Positions 50,274 through 61,215 of a stretch of DNA of 64,000 bases are shown piece after piece. Position numbers and translations under genes: made by a program. Source of the DNA: Bacteroidota bacterium (GTDB taxonomy: Bacteria; Bacteroidota; Bacteroidia; Palsa-965). Each line of letters starts with the position of its first letter. The first letter of the stretch is position 1. Where the stretch lies: NCBI GenBank assembly GCA_016194975.1, contig JACQAM010000004.1, positions 1 to 64,000 of the forward strand, given 5' to 3'. The notes beneath the pieces were generated by a model, which did not search any database, was not told where the DNA came from, and worked only from the letters and a program-made list of their open reading frames with translations.

Positions 50274-50759
50274 TTAGACTACTTTTTCTATCGATCCAAT
50301 ATAATTTTTCAAAAACGTCCTCGCCCGGAAAATATAAACTTTCACTTGCGATTCTGTCAATCCTGTTATTTCTCCTATTTCATCGTACGCGTATCCTTCG
50401 TAATCACGGAGCAGCACTACAGACTTTTGTATTTCCGGCAATTTGTTCAACGCTTCATTCAGAATTTCTTTCAGGTCGCTGTACTGTTTGTTGTGCGACA
50501 CCGCTATCATCGGCACTTCATCCATCGTTCCCTGGCGTTTATCTTTTCGTATGTAATCGATCATCGTTCTGTATGCAGTGGTGAACATGTACGACTTCGC
50601 ATTTTTCGATTCGGTTTCCGAAACTTTCATCCACAATTTTTCATACGTGTCCTGTACTATGTCCTGCGCCTTTTCTTTATCCTTCACATTTTTCAATATG
50701 AAACGATACAGGTTGTCAGAATAAAGATCGACGCAGCGGTTATATTCTTCTACGGTCAT
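50274..50759 (-). CDS. ECF-type RNA polymerase sigma factor
   Basis: 161 residues with ECF region 2 (YRFILKNVKDKEKAQDIVQDTYEKLW) and region 4 (ALNKLPEIQKSVVLLRDYEGYAYDEIGEITGLTESQVKVYIFRARTFL), the helix-turn-helix motif at the end. No extra domains. It lies immediately upstream of the anti-sigma-like gene and is thus probably inhibited by it. Its target promoters are unknown. TAATTTAG upstream is one base off the -7 box. Confidence 0.93.
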   Translation of the reverse strand: MTVEEYNRCVDLYSDNLYRFILKNVKDKEKAQDIVQDTYEKLWMKVSETESKNAKSYMFTTAYRTMIDYIRKDKRQGTMDEVPMIAVSHNKQYSDLKEILNEALNKLPEIQKSVVLLRDYEGYAYDEIGEITGLTESQVKVYIFRARTFLKNYIGSIEKVV

Positions 50760-51115
50760 TGGCAGCTTGGCTTGAAGTAACGTTGCACTTCACTCCCTTG
50801 GTGTAGTCATAAGACGGAGAACTACACAGGTAGTTACAGCTAAATTACTTTAAATCACAATGGGTTGAAGGCCAATTTGGAGGAGCGGCACCCCGGTGCA
50901 TCAAATTACCACCTGTCCCGTCATCTGGTCGGCGGAGCTCCCGCCTGCCGGGGCTATGAAAGTTGGTCAGTGTTTCAAAAGTCCTTTTACTTGGGGAACC
51001 TTGAAGTCTCTTTGAGAAAAAATACTTCTGTTTTTTTTATTATTGACTATAGAATCAAATACATAATATTATTAAATAAGATGCTAATTATCGAATTACA
51101 CTGCAGTCTTTTCAA
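50760..51115. other. Spacer without a supported gene; possible dispersed element
   Basis: 356 bp. Its first part is the leader of the sigma gene. The middle (about 50875-51010) is GC-rich and contains palindromic words such as CACCCCGGTG and GGCGGAGCTCCCGCC. Two short open frames (for example 50865-51152, plus strand) have no resemblance to a protein family that I can defend. The last part is AT-rich. It looks like a dispersed repeat or IS remnant, but I cannot show a second copy in the window. Confidence 0.35.
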
Positions 51116-51607
51116 TCATAGATATTTCATATCGCCAAGCTTCTTATCGTAATTCATTTTAATTTCCCTTTCCAAGATATCTTTTTGCTTTACCAGTTCC
51201 GTTTTTTTATCCTCGAGATCCTTCAATATTTTTTCCTTCCGAAGTTTTATTTCTCCGCCATCCTTATTAAGATCTATTAAACTCATTTCTACAATTATTG
51301 AAACTATCTTATTATCAAGAGGAGCAATCTTTTTTCGTAACTCGGCATTATACTCTCGTTGTATTTCTTGCTTGATCTTATATTTTTTATCGAAAATTCC
51401 CCTAACTCCTTTTCCAAGATCATCTAAGGTATCAGGAGTTGCTATAACGTTGCCTTTTCCTCCGAGAATAGAATCTTTTGTTTTAATAGAAGTTCCAGAA
51501 ATTTTGGAAATCAAAGCTGGCAAAATACCGAAAACAACTATAAGGAAAATGACCAGAAGGAAAATTGCGCCTGCGCCGCTAAGAAAACTGGATTCCAAAA
51601 TTCGCAT
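51116..51607 (-). CDS. Small membrane-anchored coiled-coil protein, unknown
   Basis: 163 residues, one N-terminal transmembrane segment (AGAIFLLVIFLIVVFGILPALI) and then a lysine/glutamate-rich helical part (about 70-160) with heptad-like pattern (EIKLRKEKILKDLEDKKTELVKQKDILEREIK). This suggests a coiled coil. No family recognised. The DNA is AT-rich compared with the core genes around it, and it sits in the accessory patch next to HicBA. Confidence 0.55.
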   Translation of the reverse strand: MRILESSFLSGAGAIFLLVIFLIVVFGILPALISKISGTSIKTKDSILGGKGNVIATPDTLDDLGKGVRGIFDKKYKIKQEIQREYNAELRKKIAPLDNKIVSIIVEMSLIDLNKDGGEIKLRKEKILKDLEDKKTELVKQKDILEREIKMNYDKKLGDMKYL

Positions 51608-51714
51608 ATGACATTGCTATTTTCTTCTAATATACAATTATCTCTCAGCTTTCATAAATCCAAAACTTTAAACAGCTCCATCTGTAATTTGTAATCACGT
51701 AATCTGTAATTAAT

Positions 51715-51786
51715 TTATTGATCAACCTCCAAATCCGTCAACGCCATCTTCTTCAATCCCGAAATTTTTCCAAGAACATCCGTTAG
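51715..51786 (-). pseudogene. Relic of the 3' end of an M16-peptidase gene
   Basis: Minus-strand reading L-T-D-V-L-G-K-I-S-G-L-K-K-M-A-L-T-D-L-E-V-D-Q-stop is clearly homologous to the C-terminus of the intact M16 paralogue at 52500-53882 (KISGLQKMALTDIEKDQ-stop), at about 75 percent nucleotide identity, with a TGA stop just upstream in frame. The HicBA module lies between the relic and the intact gene. It is a displaced or duplicated tail, not a gene. Confidence 0.65.
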
Positions 51787-51804
51787 TCAAAATTATTCGA
51801 TCAC

Positions 51805-52035
51805 TCACAATATCTTCAGAAATTCTTCGAGTTCCATCTGAAGATCTTCGCGGATTATTTTTCTCAGAAGTCCTTTGGGAATCGCATCATTTTTGTGAAC
51901 AGGAATGGTGGTTACTCTTCCGTCAGGATGCGACATTCTATGATGTGATCCGTTAACTCTGATCACGGAAAAGCCATGCCGTTGTAAAACTTTGATGAGA
52001 TTCTTTCCCGAAATAGCTGGCAAATGTGTTCCCAT
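51805..52035 (-). CDS. hicA: HicA-type toxin (type II toxin-antitoxin)
   Basis: 76 residues, small basic dsRBD-like protein: SGKNLIKVLQRHGFSVIRVNGSHHRMSHPDGR.TTIPVHKNDAIPKGLLRKIIRE. The conserved catalytic histidine lies in GSHH.M. HicA toxins are mRNA interferases neutralised by HicB. HicB is directly upstream with three bases between the genes. The position downstream of the antitoxin is the less common hicB-hicA order. Confidence 0.88.
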   Translation of the reverse strand: MGTHLPAISGKNLIKVLQRHGFSVIRVNGSHHRMSHPDGRVTTIPVHKNDAIPKGLLRKIIREDLQMELEEFLKIL

Positions 52036-52038
52036 AAA

Positions 52039-52293
52039 TTAACTTGCCTTCACTTCGATCTCGCGGAAACCAACAAAACGGTTTATTGGAATAATGCTCT
52101 TGCCCTTTTTCTTTGGCTTCACTTCGTCAATACACATCTCCACCACTTCCCTTATATTTTCCAACGCCTCATCAATTGTTTTGCCGTAAGTGTGACATCC
52201 TTTAAAGAGCGGACAAGACACGATGAAGAATCCATCCTCATCTACTTCGACGATAAGTGGGATATGCATTTTTTCTCTTGCGTTCCTTTTCAT
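52039..52293 (-). CDS. hicB: HicB-type antitoxin
   Basis: 84 residues, or 76 if ATG 52269 (MHIPLIVEVDEDGFF) is used. HicB partial RNase H fold: IPLIVEVDEDGFFIVSCPLFKGCHTYGKTIDEALENIREVVEMCIDE. It lacks the C-terminal DNA-binding domain found in longer HicB proteins, so autoregulation may depend on another part. TATCTTTA (52299-52306, minus strand) is one mismatch from the -7 box and lies five bases upstream of the first ATG. Confidence 0.85.
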   Translation of the reverse strand: MKRNAREKMHIPLIVEVDEDGFFIVSCPLFKGCHTYGKTIDEALENIREVVEMCIDEVKPKKKGKSIIPINRFVGFREIEVKAS

Positions 52294-52369
52294 AATTCTA
52301 AAGATACAAAATAAGGAGAAACGAATTGTGAAGAGGAGTTTTCAATTATCTTCTCTTTCAAAATCCCCA

Positions 52370-52498
52370 ATGAGAAAGAGAAACAAATACGATTCCTCCG
52401 TCGTGTTTCTTTATTCCACCGGCAACGAACATTTTCTTCCTGCATCCTTCCGCAAACAAATTCCATACACCACGGTTGCTGAATGGAAGAAGTTCCCC
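52370..52498 (+). pseudogene. Possible transposase N-terminal fragment
   Basis: Open plus-strand frame MRKRNKYDSSVVFLYSTGN....FLPASFRKQIPYTTVAEWKKF, reminiscent of the helix-turn-helix N-terminus of Bacteroidota IS transposases ('...IP.STI..WKK'). It is abruptly joined at about 52498 to the antisense of the M16 peptidase 3' end. No inverted repeats or rest of a transposase are visible. It is weak evidence for a past insertion event at this position. Confidence 0.3.
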
Positions 52499-52499
52499 A

Positions 52500-53882
52500 T
52501 TATTGATCCTTCTCAATATCCGTCAACGCCATCTTCTGCAATCCGGAAATTTTCGCGAGCTGATCTGCAAGATCTGTTGCATCACCGGCGATCATCAGCT
52601 TGTAACAATCGGGCGTAAAATATTTTTTGATCGCTTTGTTCACCGTTGCAAGATCGATCGCGTCGAGATCTGCCAAATAATTTTTCCGTTTCTCATAATC
52701 TTTGTACACCCACGGATTGATGAGCGATGCCATTGAAGAGGGTTCTTCCACATTAAGAATATCGGTCTTCATCATGTTCCTGAATTTTTTCAGCTCGGCA
52801 TCAGTCGCGCCATTTTTGAAAAGATTGCTCAGCACCGTATCGTATGCCATTATCGTGTTGTACGTCACTTCATTTCTTATCTGCGTTTTCGCACGGAAAA
52901 TTCCGTCGTTCTGTGTTTCGGAATACGTGCTGTAAATTCCATAGGTGAATCCTTTTTTCTCGCGGATATCTTTTCCGAGACGATCAGAAAAAATTGCATT
53001 CGCCAGGCGGAACGCCAGCATATCTTTGCTTCCCGCATCGGGCGCACGCTTGAACCATTCGAGGCAGGCCTGCTTCGCTCCTTCTTTCGGAATGAATGCA
53101 AACTCTTTTGTTTTGATCGGTGGAATATCATACGACGAACCATTCACTTCTCCGTAAGCAGCATTCCATTTTCCGAAATACTGTTCGATCAGTTTTTTCA
53201 CCAGTTCCTGGTCTGTCTTTCCGGTCACGACCAATTTTGTATTTCCCGGAGTATAATTGAAAGAATAAAATTCTTTGATCTGGGAAATTCCTTCTTTTGA
53301 ATATTGTGTTTCATAAAAATGCCTTCCGAGCGGATGGGCAATTCCGTACGTGAAATAATTTCCATACATGTCTGCCAGCGCGCCTATATCCATCTTCGAC
53401 GGTTTGTTCTGCGAAATGGTAAAACCTTTTTCTTCATCCACATCGGCCTGCGGAAAAGAAGGATGCAAAAGCACGGCGGATAAAAGTTTCATTCCGTCTT
53501 CAAGATTTTCATTGAGAAATTCTCCGTTCACTTCCGTAAAATTCTCATTGGCTGACGCTGAAATATTCGCATCCATTCGGTACATCAAACGATCTTCATC
53601 AATGCGCGAATACTGGTCATTGCCCATCAGCAAAGAAGTCGCTGTGAGTTCGGCGAGTCCCTGTTGGCCGGGCGTTTCACTTTTCTTTCCCACGTTGATG
53701 AAGAAAGTAAGATCCGTAACGGGCAATGAACCGTAAGGCGCAAAAATCACTTCGAGTCCGTTCGGAAGTTTGTAGCGCGTTATTTCCGGGAAAGGATTTT
53801 TCTGAATGGATCCTGCAGAAAGCAGGAAGATCATTGCCGGAATAACAGCAAGCCGGAGAGAAAATAATTTTTTCATGTTCAT
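52500..53882 (-). CDS. M16-family peptidase-like protein, inactive (no HxxEH)
   Basis: 460 residues with signal peptide (AVIPAMIFLLSAGSIQ). M16 fold: KLPNGLEVIFAPYGSLPVTDLTFFINVGKKSE, then GQQGLAELTATSLLMG where the zinc motif HxxEH should be, so it is catalytically dead. GNTKLVVTGKTDQELVKKLIEQYFGKW and a second M16 C-terminal half are present. Such inactive subunits pair with an active one, here the gene at 56214. Between them is a phosphatase gene. ATG 53882 and 53876 are both possible starts. Confidence 0.9.
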   Translation of the reverse strand: MNMKKLFSLRLAVIPAMIFLLSAGSIQKNPFPEITRYKLPNGLEVIFAPYGSLPVTDLTFFINVGKKSETPGQQGLAELTATSLLMGNDQYSRIDEDRLMYRMDANISASANENFTEVNGEFLNENLEDGMKLLSAVLLHPSFPQADVDEEKGFTISQNKPSKMDIGALADMYGNYFTYGIAHPLGRHFYETQYSKEGISQIKEFYSFNYTPGNTKLVVTGKTDQELVKKLIEQYFGKWNAAYGEVNGSSYDIPPIKTKEFAFIPKEGAKQACLEWFKRAPDAGSKDMLAFRLANAIFSDRLGKDIREKKGFTYGIYSTYSETQNDGIFRAKTQIRNEVTYNTIMAYDTVLSNLFKNGATDAELKKFRNMMKTDILNVEEPSSMASLINPWVYKDYEKRKNYLADLDAIDLATVNKAIKKYFTPDCYKLMIAGDATDLADQLAKISGLQKMALTDIEKDQ

Positions 53883-53888
53883 TTGTTT

Positions 53889-56096
53889 TCAGGTTTTAAT
53901 TCCGATCACTAAAATATCATCCACTTGTTCCACGTCACCTTTCCAGTTTTCGATGAACGTGTCGAGGAACGATCGTTGTTCTGTCATTGTTTTTCCGGCG
54001 AGCGATAGAATGATCTCGCGGAAACGTTTGGTCATTAATTTTTTTTCTGTTTTGCTGAACTGGTCGGCATAACCATCGCTGAAAATGTAAACAGTGTCTC
54101 CCGGATTCATGATCACATCGTGTCCTTCAAATTCCTGCTCATCATCGGTCATTCCTCCAATGGGAGCTTTCGTTGCTTTTATTTCTTCCAGCTCTCCGTT
54201 CTTTCTTACGATCCACAGCGGGCGATTGGCACCGGAATAATTCAGTGTATTTTTTTCTTTCGACAAAGCACAGAGTGCAATATCCATTCCGTCATTCACA
54301 TCGAGTGATGTGGCATTATTTTTCTGCGCTGCATTTTCCGACTGGCGGAGAACTTTTTTTATCCCACGATTAACCTGCTTAAGAATTCCCGAAGAATTTC
54401 CGTTCATCTCCACTGCTTCATGTAATTTTTCAGAAGCGAGCATGCTCATGAACGCGCCGGGAACTCCATGACCTGTGCAATCAGCTGCTGCAAAAAATAT
54501 TTTTTCTTTTGTTTCTGCAAGCCAGTAAAAATCGCCGCTCACAATATCTTTTGGTTTGAACAGGATGAAAGAATCGGGCAACGCTTTATTCCATATTTCT
54601 GCAGCGGGCAACATGGCTTCCTGAATCCGTTTTGCATAATGAATACTGTCGCGGATATCTTTGTAAACTTCCTGCAGTTTCTCACTTTTTTCCTCGATCT
54701 CTTTTTTCTGTTGCACCACTTCGGCAGTGCGTTCGGTTACCTGCGATTCGAGAATTTCATTCTGCGATTCGAGAATTTTTTTCTTTTCCTGTTCCTGCGC
54801 AATTGTTTTTGCAGAAAGTTCTTTTACCTGTACCATCTGCAATTCCAATCCTTTATTCGTCCGTGCGAACTGTCGTGCGAGATAAATAGACATGGAAACA
54901 GAAATACTCAGCACCGATGAGCCGAGCATGATCTGCACGATCAGTCCTAACGTGCTTGTTAAAGCGAAGGAAATGTTGCCGCCTTTAAGCAAAACAAAAC
55001 TGATCACAACACACAAAATAGGAAACAGCACAGCAATAATCACACCTGTTCCGATCACCCACGCGCCATCTGTTTTCCTGATGATTCCGCGGATCACCAC
55101 TCGAATACATTCTACCCCGGCAAAAAAGAAAATAAATACCATAAGAAATCCGGCGAGTTCCGATGACATCAGTCGCAGGATCATTGCCACAAAACAGAGG
55201 CCGGTAAACACCCAGAAAATTTTAGGAATCTTCTCATAGAAAATCGAGTAAAGAAAACCTGTGAGCGAGATCAGCATTAATAATAAAACTATTGAACCTG
55301 TATTATCGGCCGTTGCCTCTCCTGAATTCAGATTGTAGATTTTTATTGCAGTGGATAAACAGATCCAGAACATGCAGAGTGAAAAAGCGCTGTAGTAAAG
55401 ATTGGATCTGTTCTTGCGATAGAAGATGTAGAGAAATGTGTGCAGGAAACAAAGCGCCGCAAAAAATCCGAGCAGGAAACCGAATAAGTGCCCCATCATC
55501 ATGGCGGTGTTCAATTCAGCGATCCGCGTTTCTTTCCAGTCGGCGATCTTGCAACTGAATCCGTTCAGAGAAATATCACCTAATTTATTCTCCTTTTTTT
55601 CCGACAAGTGCCAGGATGAATAGCGAACGGCAAGAAGATGCTCTTTGTTTTTTCCAAGATTCACCATTACCGGTTCCGTTCCTTTTGAGTGGTAAACTTT
55701 TTCTTCCGAAATATTATCACCTGGAATTCCGAATTGCTGAATGAGATTTCCATCGAGATAAACATCCGCACTGCCTATCATCACCATCACCAGCGCAATG
55801 GGCTTGCCCATCATGGAAGTATCCACTGTGAAATGCAAACGAAACCATCCATTGCCTTTGAATAATTTTGCAGGCGGAGAAACCATCGTCGGCAATGACG
55901 ATACCGCAGCGGTCCAATCGCTGTCATCGTATTCCGGTTGCGACCACGCAGGTTCATCGCCCGGAAAAAATTTCCATCCCTTATCAAGTAACATTCCCTG
56001 CGTCACTTCACCCACATTCATGTTAGCATGCACATCCTGCGCGAACGTGCGCACAGACGAGAGAAGGAACAACAGGAGAAATATTTTCTTTTTCAA
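53889..56096 (-). CDS. 7TMR-DISM sensor with SpoIIE-type phosphatase
   Basis: About 735 residues starting at TTG 56096 (LKKKIFLLLFLLSSVRTFAQ, signal peptide). The frame is open to 56207 but that part reads through the foldback spacer. N-terminal extracellular beta-sandwich domain (7TMR-DISMED2, GNGWFRLHFTVDTSMMGKPIALVM), then seven transmembrane helices (residues 205-410), a coiled coil (EQEKKKILESQNEILESQ), and a SpoIIE/PP2C domain (SIHYAKRIQEAMLPAAEI, KDIVSGDFYWLAET, AADCTGHGVPGAFMSML, DGMDIALC, FSDGYADQF). It resembles the second phosphatase in the window (14191) in the catalytic part but has another sensor. It probably responds to an extracellular ligand. Confidence 0.88.
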   Translation of the reverse strand: MKKKIFLLLFLLSSVRTFAQDVHANMNVGEVTQGMLLDKGWKFFPGDEPAWSQPEYDDSDWTAAVSSLPTMVSPPAKLFKGNGWFRLHFTVDTSMMGKPIALVMVMIGSADVYLDGNLIQQFGIPGDNISEEKVYHSKGTEPVMVNLGKNKEHLLAVRYSSWHLSEKKENKLGDISLNGFSCKIADWKETRIAELNTAMMMGHLFGFLLGFFAALCFLHTFLYIFYRKNRSNLYYSAFSLCMFWICLSTAIKIYNLNSGEATADNTGSIVLLLMLISLTGFLYSIFYEKIPKIFWVFTGLCFVAMILRLMSSELAGFLMVFIFFFAGVECIRVVIRGIIRKTDGAWVIGTGVIIAVLFPILCVVISFVLLKGGNISFALTSTLGLIVQIMLGSSVLSISVSMSIYLARQFARTNKGLELQMVQVKELSAKTIAQEQEKKKILESQNEILESQVTERTAEVVQQKKEIEEKSEKLQEVYKDIRDSIHYAKRIQEAMLPAAEIWNKALPDSFILFKPKDIVSGDFYWLAETKEKIFFAAADCTGHGVPGAFMSMLASEKLHEAVEMNGNSSGILKQVNRGIKKVLRQSENAAQKNNATSLDVNDGMDIALCALSKEKNTLNYSGANRPLWIVRKNGELEEIKATKAPIGGMTDDEQEFEGHDVIMNPGDTVYIFSDGYADQFSKTEKKLMTKRFREIILSLAGKTMTEQRSFLDTFIENWKGDVEQVDDILVIGIKT

Positions 56097-56147
56097 TTTC
56101 CGGGAATTAATACAGCACGTTATTATTTTTGATGGAGTGGTTATTCG

Positions 56148-56212
56148 TATTCGTAATTTTCGTTTTACTTCGTAGTTCGTAATTCGTGAGTTTCGTAGTT
56201 CGTACAATAGAA
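56148..56212. repeat. Spacer of ATTCGTA/TTCGTAGTT words
   Basis: Tandem imperfect copies of ATTCGTAATT, TTCGTAGTTCGTA and similar between the M16 gene and the phosphatase gene. Same family of words as 8186-8235 and 18858-18915. Confidence 0.5.
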
Positions 56213-56213
56213 T

Positions 56214-57551
56214 TTACTCCGTCGGTTTAATATTGATCAGGTCCACGTGATCGGGCGAAAAATAAAGTGCAGCCACGCGTTTGATGTCATCCTGTGTAAC
56301 GGCTTTGTAACTATCCACCATCGTGTCGGCTTTATGATAATCGTGAAAATAATATTCCGCCATTCCGAGATCGTCAGCAATTCCCGCAGCAGAATACGCC
56401 GACATGATTTTCGCCGCATTCATATTCGAAATAAAATCGTCCACTTTATCCTGCGGCAATCCATTTGCGATCACTGAATCCATTTCTGCACGGATCGTTT
56501 TTTTCACTTTTATATTTCCCGGCATAGGCGGCATGAACACATCAAACTGCGTCATGGACGGATACAAACTCATCGGTTCATTCGCCTGTATGACCGCATA
56601 CGCGAGGTGATCTTTTTTCACAAGGCGTTCGTTGAGAATGGAATTTTCATCTGTAAAAAAAAGTGACATCAGCATATCGTAAGCGAAATAATCCTTATCG
56701 CCGGCAGCAGGTTGTGGAAATGCATAACAATAATCCTGCAGCGGATAATTCAGATCCATGTCGGTGATCTTCACATGAAAATTCATCAGGTCGGGAGAAG
56801 GGCCCGGAACTGTTAGTGGAAGTTGTTTTGTGATCACGCCGAAATATTTTTTTGCCATTGCAAAAACTTCTTCATGATTCACATCGCCGCTAACAATTAC
56901 AAATGCATTGTTCGGCGAATAATATTTATTGTAAAAATCCATGCATTGCGGCGCGGTAAAATTCACGATCTCGTCGAGATGGCCGATCACATCATACTGG
57001 TAAGGATGTCCGTCCGGATACAAAGCTTCGTAACGATCCTGCGACATTTTCTGGTACCAGTTACTCATTCCATTCCGGTATTCTTCTCCCACCACTTGCC
57101 GTTCCGTATTTAAAATTTCCTGAGTCACATGCAGATTCGCCATACGATCGGCTTCCAGCATAAGCGACATATCCACAGCAGAAACAGGAACATATTCATG
57201 ATAAACTGTTCTGTCGAAAGTGGTGTACGCATTCCAGTCGGCGCCCACGCTGTCGAATTTTTCCAGCAATTGTTCGCCGGTAACATTGGTTGTTCCTCGA
57301 AACATCATGTGTTCAAACATGTGTGCCATTCCGCGAATGCCGGCTTTTTCATCTTTGCTTCCCACGCGGTACCACACTTCCACTTCTGCAAAACCGTTTC
57401 CCGCCTGCCCGGCAGACAAGCCCGGTTTTTCACACACGATCACTTTCAAACCGTTCGGTAGTTGTGTATCGAAGGTGGGATAGATGTAGGCATTCGCAAA
57501 AAGCGGCAGTAAAAACAGAGGCAGTTGCAGTACTAATTTTTTGTTTTTCAT
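56214..57551 (-). CDS. M16-family zinc peptidase, active subunit
   Basis: 445 residues with signal peptide (LPLFLLPLFANAYIYP). M16 active site is intact: GMAHMFEHMMFRGT (HxxEH) with a downstream Glu in ERQVVGEEYRN. N-terminal part includes VIVCEKPGLSAGQAGNGFAEVEVWYRVGSKDE, where a stretch of about nine residues (GLSAGQAGN) is encoded by a GC-rich palindrome-like block. It probably degrades peptides in the envelope together with the inactive paralogue at 52500. Confidence 0.93.
   Translation of the reverse strand: MKNKKLVLQLPLFLLPLFANAYIYPTFDTQLPNGLKVIVCEKPGLSAGQAGNGFAEVEVWYRVGSKDEKAGIRGMAHMFEHMMFRGTTNVTGEQLLEKFDSVGADWNAYTTFDRTVYHEYVPVSAVDMSLMLEADRMANLHVTQEILNTERQVVGEEYRNGMSNWYQKMSQDRYEALYPDGHPYQYDVIGHLDEIVNFTAPQCMDFYNKYYSPNNAFVIVSGDVNHEEVFAMAKKYFGVITKQLPLTVPGPSPDLMNFHVKITDMDLNYPLQDYCYAFPQPAAGDKDYFAYDMLMSLFFTDENSILNERLVKKDHLAYAVIQANEPMSLYPSMTQFDVFMPPMPGNIKVKKTIRAEMDSVIANGLPQDKVDDFISNMNAAKIMSAYSAAGIADDLGMAEYYFHDYHKADTMVDSYKAVTQDDIKRVAALYFSPDHVDLINIKPTE
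57400..57425. repeat. GC-rich palindrome-like insertion inside M16 gene
   Basis: CCCGCCTGCCCGGCAGACAA, then GCCCGG, an inverted-repeat block. It encodes the extra residues of a loop after the first beta strand. It resembles the short GC-rich block at 2986 in cysS and the words at 50940. Confidence 0.4.
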
Positions 57552-57599: not shown

Positions 57600-60092
57600 T
57601 CAATTCAATCTCACGCCAATTCTCATTCCGGCGCTCACTTTTGCATTCTGCATATAGCCCAGCGCAAAATCGACGCGGATGAGCCCGAGTTTATCGGCAC
57701 CGAAATATAATTCATAATACGAAGGAACTTTATCGGTAACAAGATAATTCACGCCGATCACTTCAGAAAGATGAAGGCGCTTCACAAATGGAATTTTGTC
57801 GAAGATGAATCCACCGAAATGATTTTCAGCATGCGCTTCGAGGTACCAGTTGCTGGTGGAATAAGTATAATAATCGAGCAACTGGAAACTTTGTTGCGGA
57901 AATGTGGACCAGATCGTTCTGTTGCCAACGAAATGATAGTAATCCATGAAGGGTAAATATTTTTTTGTAAGAAATTTTCCTGCGCCAATGTAGTAATTGA
58001 ATTTTCCGAAAAGTTTAAGGTTCACTTCGTCGCGCACACTCACTTTCACAAAATCATAATCGGTTTTACTTCCGAACACGCCGGGAATTCCGCGTTTGTA
58101 CTGGATGCCGAAGGTAGGATACTTCGAACCGAGAATTATTTTTTCATTCGGCCGTGTGTAATACTTCTGTTTGTATCGGAATGTCATCTGGATATTAATA
58201 TCGCAGGAGCGATGCGCATCGAATGCGGAAGAAAGTTCATTGTCGGGATGAAGCGGATCGTTGGAAGTGAAATGACGATTCGCCAGCACATTTTCTTCCT
58301 TCCACGGATTTTTCATCAGTGAATACGGATCCCAGTAATCATACGAAGTATTGTAAAGCGGTTTGCGATCGGCGTATTCAATTTCGGAAGTGAGCATCAC
58401 TCCATTGGTTACTTCCGTATGCCAGTTCACATTCACATAATCTTTCGAATACAGCTTCATGTAATTTTCTTTTTCGAGTAAAGTGTAAAGTGTATTCACA
58501 AAAACAGGTATCGGATCTTTCGTGCTGAATTGTGTAGCGGCGCTTCCACCCGCGAGCGTGATGCGCGCGAAACGCACGGGCTTGTACAGGTACGAGCATT
58601 CCGCATCCGCGTAAATTTTTTTATCGGCGCAGCCGTAGGAAAAAGAAGGATCAATGTTTAGCCATTTATTATTATCCCAATCCTTGAAAAAATTCATGTC
58701 TGTTCCAATGCGCACGCCCTGCACGGTGTTGTAGCTCACTGCGCGTACGAGAGGAGAAACACTTAAGCTGTAGTGATGGTAGCGTTTCGAAAAAGCATAA
58801 CCGGCAAAAAGAATATCCGTCACCTTCGGGCGATTCTGTTTGCGGTCCACCGAATCGAGATACGCTTTTGAATTCCGGATATTGAAGAGCGAATCGCGCT
58901 TGTGATAATCACGCGCCTCCTCATCCGTAAGCGGAACCGGGCGTGTTTGTACCCAATAAGCGGAATCTTTTTTATTCGCTTCATCATCCACATGCATCTC
59001 TTCGTTACTGAAATATTTTTTCGGAAAATCGGGATCAATGATGTAGTTGCTGTTCACGCCCACGAAAAATCCATTTCCTTTCAATCCCATGAATCCGAAA
59101 TTGAAAGTGAATTTATTCATGAACACCATCCACACATCTTTCTCAATGGGAACGAAGGTCTGGTTGATCATGAGTGTATCCACGAAATCGATCTGCGCAT
59201 CTTTCGTGAGAAATAATTCCGTTTCATAAATGCGCCAGGAATTTTCGGCGATGTAAATGTATCCGCGGAAACAGGGATCTGTTTTTCTTTTAGGGATCAC
59301 TTCTATTTTATTGATGATGGAATCATTTTCAATGATCGTTCCCACCATCCGGTATTTATAAAACAGCATCGCATCAGCGGCAATAGGAGAAACAAAACCT
59401 CGTTCGCTGAGATCTTCAATCTCGATGAGATTTTCGTAAAAATTAAAAAGCATATCGGAAGCGCGGTTGTAGCTGAATGCTTTATTATCGCCACTCACTT
59501 TCGATGAGATCATTTCTTCTTTAATGTGATCAGTGCGTTTGAAATTGAATTTCGAAACCGATTCCGAGAGATAAACTATTCCCGAAACAGAATCGATATC
59601 GCCATCCACATCCACTTCCATTCCCATAATTTTATCGGGATGTTCAGTCACACGTTGCAACCCTTTGATGTAAACATCACAGGAAAAAGCATCCACTTGT
59701 TCGAGATAATATTTTCTTTTTTTAATCGCATTCCGGATCACTGCGTAAGCGGGATCTTCTCCATCAGTAACCACGGCTTCTTTCAGCGTAACAGAATTCG
59801 CACTGAGTTGCACGTCGAGTGATTTATTTGCAGTCGTGAGATCGACATCAAATTGTTTCTGGTTGTAACCGATGACCTGGAAGATGACGGTATATTTTCC
59901 CGGATCAAGATCGAGTGAATAAAATCCTTTGTCGTTGCTGGTGGTTCCTTTGGAAGTTCCCTTCACATAAATGGCTCCGTAGGGCAGCGGTTCTCCTTTT
60001 GTATCGGTGAGTTTTCCGCTGAGTGTGAATGCAAAAATATTTCCCGGAAGAAAAAACAGAAAAATAAAAATGCAGAAAATACAGCGCAACAT
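57600..60092 (-). CDS. DUF5686 / carboxypeptidase-regulatory-like outer-membrane protein
   Basis: 830 residues from ATG 60092 (signal peptide CIFCIFIFLFFLPGNIFAF). The first part is a carboxypeptidase-regulatory-like Ig domain (SGKLTDTKGEPLPYGAIYVKGT..GTTSNDKGFYSLDL). The rest is the DUF5686 domain, rich in aromatic-alternating beta strands and ending in ASAGMRIGVRLN, the pattern of an outer-membrane barrel. This suggests a TonB-plug-less barrel of unknown transport role. A perfect -7 box on the minus strand at 60161-60168 fixes transcription start near 60153, so the frame open to 60191 is not translated. Confidence 0.9.
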   Translation of the reverse strand: MLRCIFCIFIFLFFLPGNIFAFTLSGKLTDTKGEPLPYGAIYVKGTSKGTTSNDKGFYSLDLDPGKYTVIFQVIGYNQKQFDVDLTTANKSLDVQLSANSVTLKEAVVTDGEDPAYAVIRNAIKKRKYYLEQVDAFSCDVYIKGLQRVTEHPDKIMGMEVDVDGDIDSVSGIVYLSESVSKFNFKRTDHIKEEMISSKVSGDNKAFSYNRASDMLFNFYENLIEIEDLSERGFVSPIAADAMLFYKYRMVGTIIENDSIINKIEVIPKRKTDPCFRGYIYIAENSWRIYETELFLTKDAQIDFVDTLMINQTFVPIEKDVWMVFMNKFTFNFGFMGLKGNGFFVGVNSNYIIDPDFPKKYFSNEEMHVDDEANKKDSAYWVQTRPVPLTDEEARDYHKRDSLFNIRNSKAYLDSVDRKQNRPKVTDILFAGYAFSKRYHHYSLSVSPLVRAVSYNTVQGVRIGTDMNFFKDWDNNKWLNIDPSFSYGCADKKIYADAECSYLYKPVRFARITLAGGSAATQFSTKDPIPVFVNTLYTLLEKENYMKLYSKDYVNVNWHTEVTNGVMLTSEIEYADRKPLYNTSYDYWDPYSLMKNPWKEENVLANRHFTSNDPLHPDNELSSAFDAHRSCDINIQMTFRYKQKYYTRPNEKIILGSKYPTFGIQYKRGIPGVFGSKTDYDFVKVSVRDEVNLKLFGKFNYYIGAGKFLTKKYLPFMDYYHFVGNRTIWSTFPQQSFQLLDYYTYSTSNWYLEAHAENHFGGFIFDKIPFVKRLHLSEVIGVNYLVTDKVPSYYELYFGADKLGLIRVDFALGYMQNAKVSAGMRIGVRLN

Positions 60093-60160
60093 GGGAAGAG
60101 TGTGTGAATGAAAGACGTTGCGTAAGCGGGGCAGTTGCTTTGCACAACGAGGTACTCTTA

Positions 60161-60168
60161 CAAATGTA
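60161..60168 (-). promoter_or_regulatory. Bacteroidota -7 promoter box for the DUF5686 gene
   Basis: Minus strand TACATTTG, perfect TAnnTTTG, giving a leader of about 60 nt to ATG 60092. Confidence 0.6.
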
Positions 60169-60224
60169 GGAAATGAAAAGCGGCCTCGCACAATGATAAT
60201 GGGCTATGAAAAGAAAAAATCTTT

Positions 60225-61148
60225 TCAGAAATTTCCCCAGTTCTTCAGCTCATCAGTAGTCCACAATTCCGGGAAAAATATTCGGCGTTGATGCGAAGGA
60301 TGCAGGTATTTTTTCCATTCACTTCCACCGGTTGCCGGTTTCACGAGCCCGCCTGATTCGAGGTAATGCTCGGCAGTTTTCAAATGAGCCAGCGGCCACA
60401 CCACGTTGTAAGTATGATCGAAATCGCGTAACGCTTTTTCGAGCGATTTCTTTTCTCCATTCATCGCAAGAAATTTCCGGTACACATTCCGGTTCTTCAT
60501 TTTCTCTGCCGTGAACTTGAGCGCATTTTCATATTTTTCTTCGAAGAGAATCAGCGTCTGTGTTTTTTCGCCGGTTTTCCGGTCGAGTCCTGCGTCTTTC
60601 CAATACAATTCTCCAAAAATTTTATCAAGATCAGAATCATTCTCTATTTTATTCTTCACACGATGATTCAACAACAATAAAATATCGGTACACATCAGTT
60701 CTATGAAACGGAACTGTACACTCTGGAATCCGCTTGCGGGCGCGAGTGCGAGACGGAATTCATTGTACTGATCGTAATCCATTCCTTCACGCATCACGCT
60801 GAAAGAAGCAGTTAGAATTCCGGCATAACGATTCACACGTTCGATCTTCGTCTGAAAAAAATCCATTGTGATCTCCTCTGCATTCACCACCTGCTCGAGC
60901 TCATGCACAATGAGTTTTAAAATAAGTTCCGTCACCTGGTGATACATGATGAAAATAGTTTCATCGGGATAATCCGTGCGCGGGCGCTGCAGCGACAATA
61001 AAGTTTCGAGCTGAACGTAATCCCAGTACGTAACGGGTTTCTGATAAGAAAATCCTTTCAGGAAAGATCCCGCATCCTGTCCGAGTGCTTCGTACTTCTC
61101 TTCAATTTTCTTTAACGTGTCGAGGTGTTCTTTCTTGAAATCGGTCAT
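60225..61148 (-). CDS. kynA: Tryptophan 2,3-dioxygenase
   Basis: 307 residues from ATG 61148 (MTDFKKEHLDTLKKIEEKY). The frame is open from TTG 61172, but that lies next to a TATTTTGA promoter-like box. Heme enzyme opening tryptophan to N-formylkynurenine. Motifs: YWDYVQLETLLSLQ, ETIFIMYHQVTELILKLIVHE (distal His), QYNEFRLALAPASGFQSVQFRFIE (substrate Arg) and WPLAHLKTAEHYL (heme-ligand His). First step of the kynurenine pathway, which would give NAD or be used for tryptophan catabolism. The rest of the pathway is not in the window. Confidence 0.95.
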   Translation of the reverse strand: MTDFKKEHLDTLKKIEEKYEALGQDAGSFLKGFSYQKPVTYWDYVQLETLLSLQRPRTDYPDETIFIMYHQVTELILKLIVHELEQVVNAEEITMDFFQTKIERVNRYAGILTASFSVMREGMDYDQYNEFRLALAPASGFQSVQFRFIELMCTDILLLLNHRVKNKIENDSDLDKIFGELYWKDAGLDRKTGEKTQTLILFEEKYENALKFTAEKMKNRNVYRKFLAMNGEKKSLEKALRDFDHTYNVVWPLAHLKTAEHYLESGGLVKPATGGSEWKKYLHPSHQRRIFFPELWTTDELKNWGNF

Positions 61149-61215
61149 TGGAATTTTATTAAACGATTTCAAAATACGGAAATAAGATGGTCAATGGCAA
61201 ATGATAATTATCAGG

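Follow-up and report, generated by a model that had tools for sequence, protein, structure and literature searches.

The window, the whole 64,000-nucleotide stretch of Bacteroidota DNA analysed here, carries a hicBA toxin–antitoxin module between two copies of the 3′ end of a peptidase M16-like gene, referred to here as M16a. The features of the locus are as follows.

50274–50759, minus strand: ECF sigma factor, the conserved far border of a variable spacer (81–91% orthologues; synteny)
51116–51607, minus strand: orphan protein of 163 aa, a TM segment followed by a coiled coil
51676–51716, minus strand: short dispersed intergenic repeat directly after the relic stop codon (own-genome BLAST)
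51715–51768, minus strand: relic copy of the M16a tail, in frame and ending in TAA
51769–51786, minus strand: possible 6-codon extension of the relic (9/18 identical; alone not significant)
51805–52035, minus strand: hicA toxin, 76 aa, GSHH motif kept (Pfam PF07927, HicA_toxin, 3e-19; PDB 1whz, 6g26, 4c26)
52039–52293, minus strand: hicB antitoxin, 84 aa (Pfam PF15919, HicB_lk_antitox, 1e-7; PDB 6g1c, 6g1n)
52370–52495, plus strand: first ~41 codons of an rve (IS3/IS481-like) transposase
52500–52553, minus strand: intact copy of the M16a tail
52500–53882, minus strand: M16a, peptidase M16-like subunit without HxxEH, 3′ end duplicated (Pfam M16_C 3e-26, M16 8e-6)

An earlier note on this DNA had claimed that the last 24 codons of an M16 peptidase gene occur twice, that HicB and HicA fill the space between the two tails, and that a TM/coiled-coil gene and a possible transposase fragment lie beside them. 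The flanking tails are confirmed: the copies at 52500–52553 and 51715–51768 align without gaps over 54 bp and are identical at 47 of 54 positions, a TAA stop closes both, and the local score of the pair is 73 against at most 36 among 100 shuffles. In a BLAST search of the whole 4.1 Mb genome, the relic was the sole other copy of the M16a tail (E 5.4e-12). The length claimed for the duplication stands in part, as the last 18 codons including the stop are certain but the first 18 of the 72 bp (51769–51786) match at 9 positions. The gene at 52500 is M16-like but encodes a subunit lacking HxxEH; its neighbour M16b (56214–57551) has this motif as HMFEH. Both members of the toxin–antitoxin pair were recognized by Pfam in the space assigned to them, the transposase fragment proved real, and the TM/coiled-coil gene corresponds to the ORF at 51116–51607, which has no Pfam family.

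The M16a protein ends in AKISGLQKMALTDIEKDQ and the same strand at 51715–51768 in GKISGLKKMALTDLEVDQ, each followed by a stop; the relic tail protein reads LTDVLGKISGLKKMALTDLEVDQ and its intact counterpart ends in LADQLAKISGLQKMALTDIEKDQ, again up to the stop. An identical core of 20 bp is present in both copies. The 731 bp between them contain the transposase fragment, hicB and hicA, and long direct repeats (54 bp, 87%) are thereby found at both ends of the insert. Six of the seven differences between the copies are protein-changing. Judged by G001 and G007, two genomes of other species, most of the amino-acid differences show the relic as the copy that has diverged further, and the relic differs at residues conserved in both (Q, LQ and IE). 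This departure suits a decaying duplicate equally well as a foreign allele.

The HicA_toxin profile scored 69 bits against a curated cut-off of 27, and the GSHH motif of HicA aligns with GSAH in chain E of 6g26, a column that we take to hold the catalytic histidine. For HicB, whose gene lies 3 nt from hicA, PF15919 scored 32.3 bits against a cut-off of 27. The protein matches solved HicB or HicB-like chains over residues 9–61 only, corresponding to their N-terminal half; a DNA-binding C-terminus is not found in every HicB. Thus, the module resembles type II HicBA modules in the HicA fold, the GSHH motif and the adjoining HicB, whereas it differs from them in its hicB–hicA order and in a HicB of 84 aa that is matched in the N-terminal half only. 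HicA relatives of the same subtype (63–66%) occur in four other bacterial families, amid unrelated genes, and the subtype was not found in the source genus at E 1e-3. No relatives of HicA or of the transposase fragment were found among viral contigs, and a search of plasmids returned only HicA matches, all below 47%. Judged by its sequence, the module appears to be an ordinary hicBA, and the interest is in the scar and its recurrence.

The plus-strand ORF that runs up to the M16a stop encodes MRKRNKYDSSVVFLYSTGNEHFLPASFRKQIPYTTVAEWKK. Forty-two residues of this fragment match the N-termini of proteins of 366–468 aa; three genomes have such proteins at 66, 64 and 53%, and one more genome at 36%. 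The full-length relatives possess the rve integrase core, and their resemblance to IS3 and IS481 falls below the family cut-offs. Homology of the transposase DNA, leader included, extends from 52342 to 52491, so that its end lies no more than about 8 nt from the M16a stop; therefore, the insert starts directly behind M16a. Transposition of an IS with target-site duplication, for which an intact transposase and terminal inverted repeats were sought, finds no support as an account of the scar: an intact transposase is absent from the scar, which retains only ~41 N-terminal codons, and inverted repeats that would mark the element's ends were looked for in three relatives and none were found.

Several other features were observed in and around the spacer. 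The sole relative of the 163 aa orphan is a partial one in G008, of the same bacterial family (44% over residues 4–87). About 17 of 41 own-genome BLAST matches map to query bases 83–132, that is, to the dispersed repeat at 51676–51716; this repeat and a second kind of short dispersed intergenic repeat, at 50893–50980, match close together at C8:309825–309999. An Rfam search of 48.5–54 kb gave no matches. As a separate observation, relatives of the transposase fragment (L111 6266–7225, L112 7440–7908, L113 8418–8696, L116 543, L115 9261 and L097 5384) are followed past the stop by a hairpin, a CATTCAGAAAAAGCGGA-like motif and a tRNA 3′ half, which often ends in GGGCTAC and beyond which come unrelated gene fragments. 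In L111, L112 and L113, a further tRNA 3′ half accompanies an inverted end, and two sister species agree as far as GGGCTAC and differ beyond it. On these sequence features, the transposase relatives with their tRNA 3′ halves look like an undescribed capture element.

The order of the DUF5686 gene, M16b, M16a, spacer, ECF sigma factor and next gene is kept in G001 and G007. Each of these species has a single M16a orthologue (66% and 60% identical, respectively) with a single tail and without hicBA. Their spacers contain MbnP-like and cytochrome peroxidase genes in G001 and two AAA ATPases in G007, and no relic of the M16a tail was found in the spacers of G001, G007 and L038. In G002 and G003, the sigma gene adjoins the gene at 60225–61172 or is separated from it by one gene, and the M16 cluster is absent there. 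These differing contents and arrangements therefore mark the spacer as a variable site. A second complete M16a gene in relatives, named in the earlier note as the case that would speak against insertion, was searched for in G001 and G007 and not found.

Additional observations concern the surrounding genes. The DUF5686–M16b–M16a cluster (57600–60191 to 50274) lies between the 60225–61172 gene and the ECF sigma gene in some family members, and it is missing at that place in other members of the genus. A 7TM-DISM/SpoIIE phosphatase gene (53889–56207) parts M16b from M16a in the window; the two M16 genes are adjacent in G001 and G007. Of the ATPases in the G007 spacer (L012 11539–15066), one has TPR repeats, and the pair is weakly like defence proteins.

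The only other hicBA of the genome (C8:129993) stands behind asnS, and its HicA is 46% identical to that of the window. The asnS tail, VIPFPRTPKNAEF with its stop, reappears over 41 bp at about 90% at the stop of hicA, which the second copy overlaps.

L034 1176–1218 and 1724–1766 (own genome, C8): asnS tail copies framing the second hicBA

This asnS-framed module in the same genome is a new finding of the present analysis, and it means that the tail-scar architecture is not unique to M16a. The asnS copies differ at five bases, all of them silent, including a swap of the stop between TAG and TGA. In simulations in which the tail was duplicated and one of the copies then decayed neutrally, such a silent-only pattern arose in 0.6% of runs (P about 0.006). 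The silent differences favour one-sided recombination over duplication with decay; the M16a case cannot separate the two models because six of its seven differences alter the protein. The ends at the hicA stop are compact, which points to a unit whose ends are defined.

For 41 Bacteroidota hicA loci, 1 kb of flanking DNA on each side was surveyed for direct repeats, and 338 other ORFs from the same contigs were treated alike. An initial control of random positions had mixed in tandem-repeat loci; hence, the matched same-contig control and a scan of gene tails were used. Thresholds and windows were picked during the work, which makes the p values no more than guides. A direct repeat reaching the set score was found at 8 of 41 hicA loci against 15 of 338 control ORFs (p 0.001), and, at a slightly lower score, repeats beginning within 100 nt of the stop at 8 of 41 against 5 of 338 (p 8e-6). 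Compared with small ORFs alone, the enrichment was not significant (8/41 versus 10/106, p 0.16). The unbiased scan covered 1.14 Mb with 771 gene tails; 11 of these tails had a copy within 1.3 kb, comprising 6 of the 33 tails situated up to 900 bp upstream of hicA and 5 of the 738 others (p 1.5e-6).

Among the six hicA cases is the window, selected because it shows the pattern. Two more are genes with type IX secretion-signal tails (21 and 42 bp), which are common to many genes, and another is the dispersed repeat L199. Leaving out the window and the two secretion-tail genes, asnS, priA and L199 remain (p 0.003). L199 was not counted as a gene tail, as it looks like a dispersed intergenic repeat, and neither was L202, which looks like low-complexity DNA; with L199 dropped as well, two clear tail cases are left, asnS and priA (20 bp for priA). 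A relic of the murB start in L128/L180 is suggestive and below the threshold. The chromosomal ccd and mazEF of E. coli (PMC7167474) are, like the module here, bare toxin–antitoxin modules between conserved genes. However, no flanking duplication was found at the ccd and mazEF insertions with known empty sites, in contrast to the duplication seen here.

We give about an even chance to the following account: hicBA and an IS piece were inserted behind the M16a stop, and the last 54–72 bp of the gene were doubled, likeliest through one-sided homologous recombination, with the result kept by addiction. The donor DNA, with an M16a tail ahead of the IS fragment and hicBA, would have paired with the resident gene, while the other donor end, just beyond hicA, would have been joined illegitimately, leaving the resident tail as an orphan downstream. 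One-sided homologous recombination whose far end is joined illegitimately is expected to leave a gene tail–insert–gene tail structure; insertion with a long target duplication would look the same. The direct repeats should then let RecA delete the module; cells losing hicBA would keep the stable toxin, so that the scar would persist and comparable scars around harmless genes would vanish. This account is favoured by the tail copy and its position, the single M16a in G001 and G007, the asnS-framed module with its silent differences, the further tail cases and the occurrence of the HicA subtype in other families; the departure of the relic from conserved residues, the loss of significance against small ORFs, the small number of clear tail cases and the absence of duplication at ccd and mazEF weigh against it. 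The suggestion of the earlier note that an insertion or recombination at the M16 3′ end brought in or trapped hicBA and left the old tail behind is thus the best reading, except that the copy surviving downstream need not be the old one.

For T6SS effector and Rhs loci, homology-facilitated illegitimate recombination has been put forward to explain orphaned 3′ ends (PMC5361080). As here, a new module stands behind a conserved gene part at those loci, with the displaced 3′ end downstream. They exchange a toxin domain and its immunity gene, whereas at the present locus the host gene stays complete and bears no relation to the cargo. Toxin–antitoxin cassettes have also been discussed as stabilising repeat-rich arrays in superintegrons (PMC2654758), and addiction by hicBA, if real, would oppose excision and keep such scars.

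A tentative alternative, possible and on the unlikely side, is insertion with a long target duplication, in which the process copies 20–250 bp of the target and the second copy decays, with no foreign allele involved. The survey result that repeats cluster within 100 nt of the stop of hicA agrees with it, and so does the finding that, compared with G001 and G007, the relic deviates more at most amino-acid differences. We know of no enzyme that makes such long duplications, which counts against it. Such insertion with long and variable duplications has been described for restriction-modification genes (Nobusato et al. 2000, as relayed in PMC3874152 and PMC1643837). The restriction-modification insertion is like the hicBA scar in that a compact addictive unit without a transposase is flanked by long direct target repeats of variable length; here, by contrast, the cargo is a type II toxin–antitoxin pair in Bacteroidota, the repeat is often a gene 3′ end, and the genomes compared with and without the insert belong to different species. 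The silent-only differences of the asnS copies, improbable under duplication with decay, argue against this alternative.

Some islands and prophages enter tRNA or protein genes carrying replacement tails, and the scar could accordingly be the remnant of an element that integrated site-specifically at the gene 3′ end. The restored tail, the displaced old one and the 20 bp core identical in both copies agree with such an origin, but it is very unlikely: no integrase ORF lies between 51787 and 52499, the target tails of the two hicBA modules, M16a and asnS, are unrelated, and the relic is absent from the M16a end in G001 and G007. Equally improbable is that M16a was doubled whole and the second copy cut down to its tail while hicBA entered, which would leave the same two tails but is unsupported because G001 and G007 have one M16a, no relic and other spacer genes, two M16a genes were seen in no relative, the genome itself has one M16a homologue above 25% identity, and the asnS case would demand the same coincidence.

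A broader and rather doubtful idea is that bare toxin–antitoxin modules such as hicBA may be mobile units without a transposase. Recombination would double the end of a neighbouring gene, the repeats would allow exit as circles and re-entry by a single crossover at homologous sites, and addiction would protect the unstable repeats. The hicBA scars connect toxin–antitoxin modules with the way in which restriction-modification genes are reported to insert. The scar at hicBA hints at how selfish pairs enter chromosomes without a transposase of their own, and a datable scar at the edge of hicBA, recurring at a second hicBA, provides a direct handle on this chromosomal entry.
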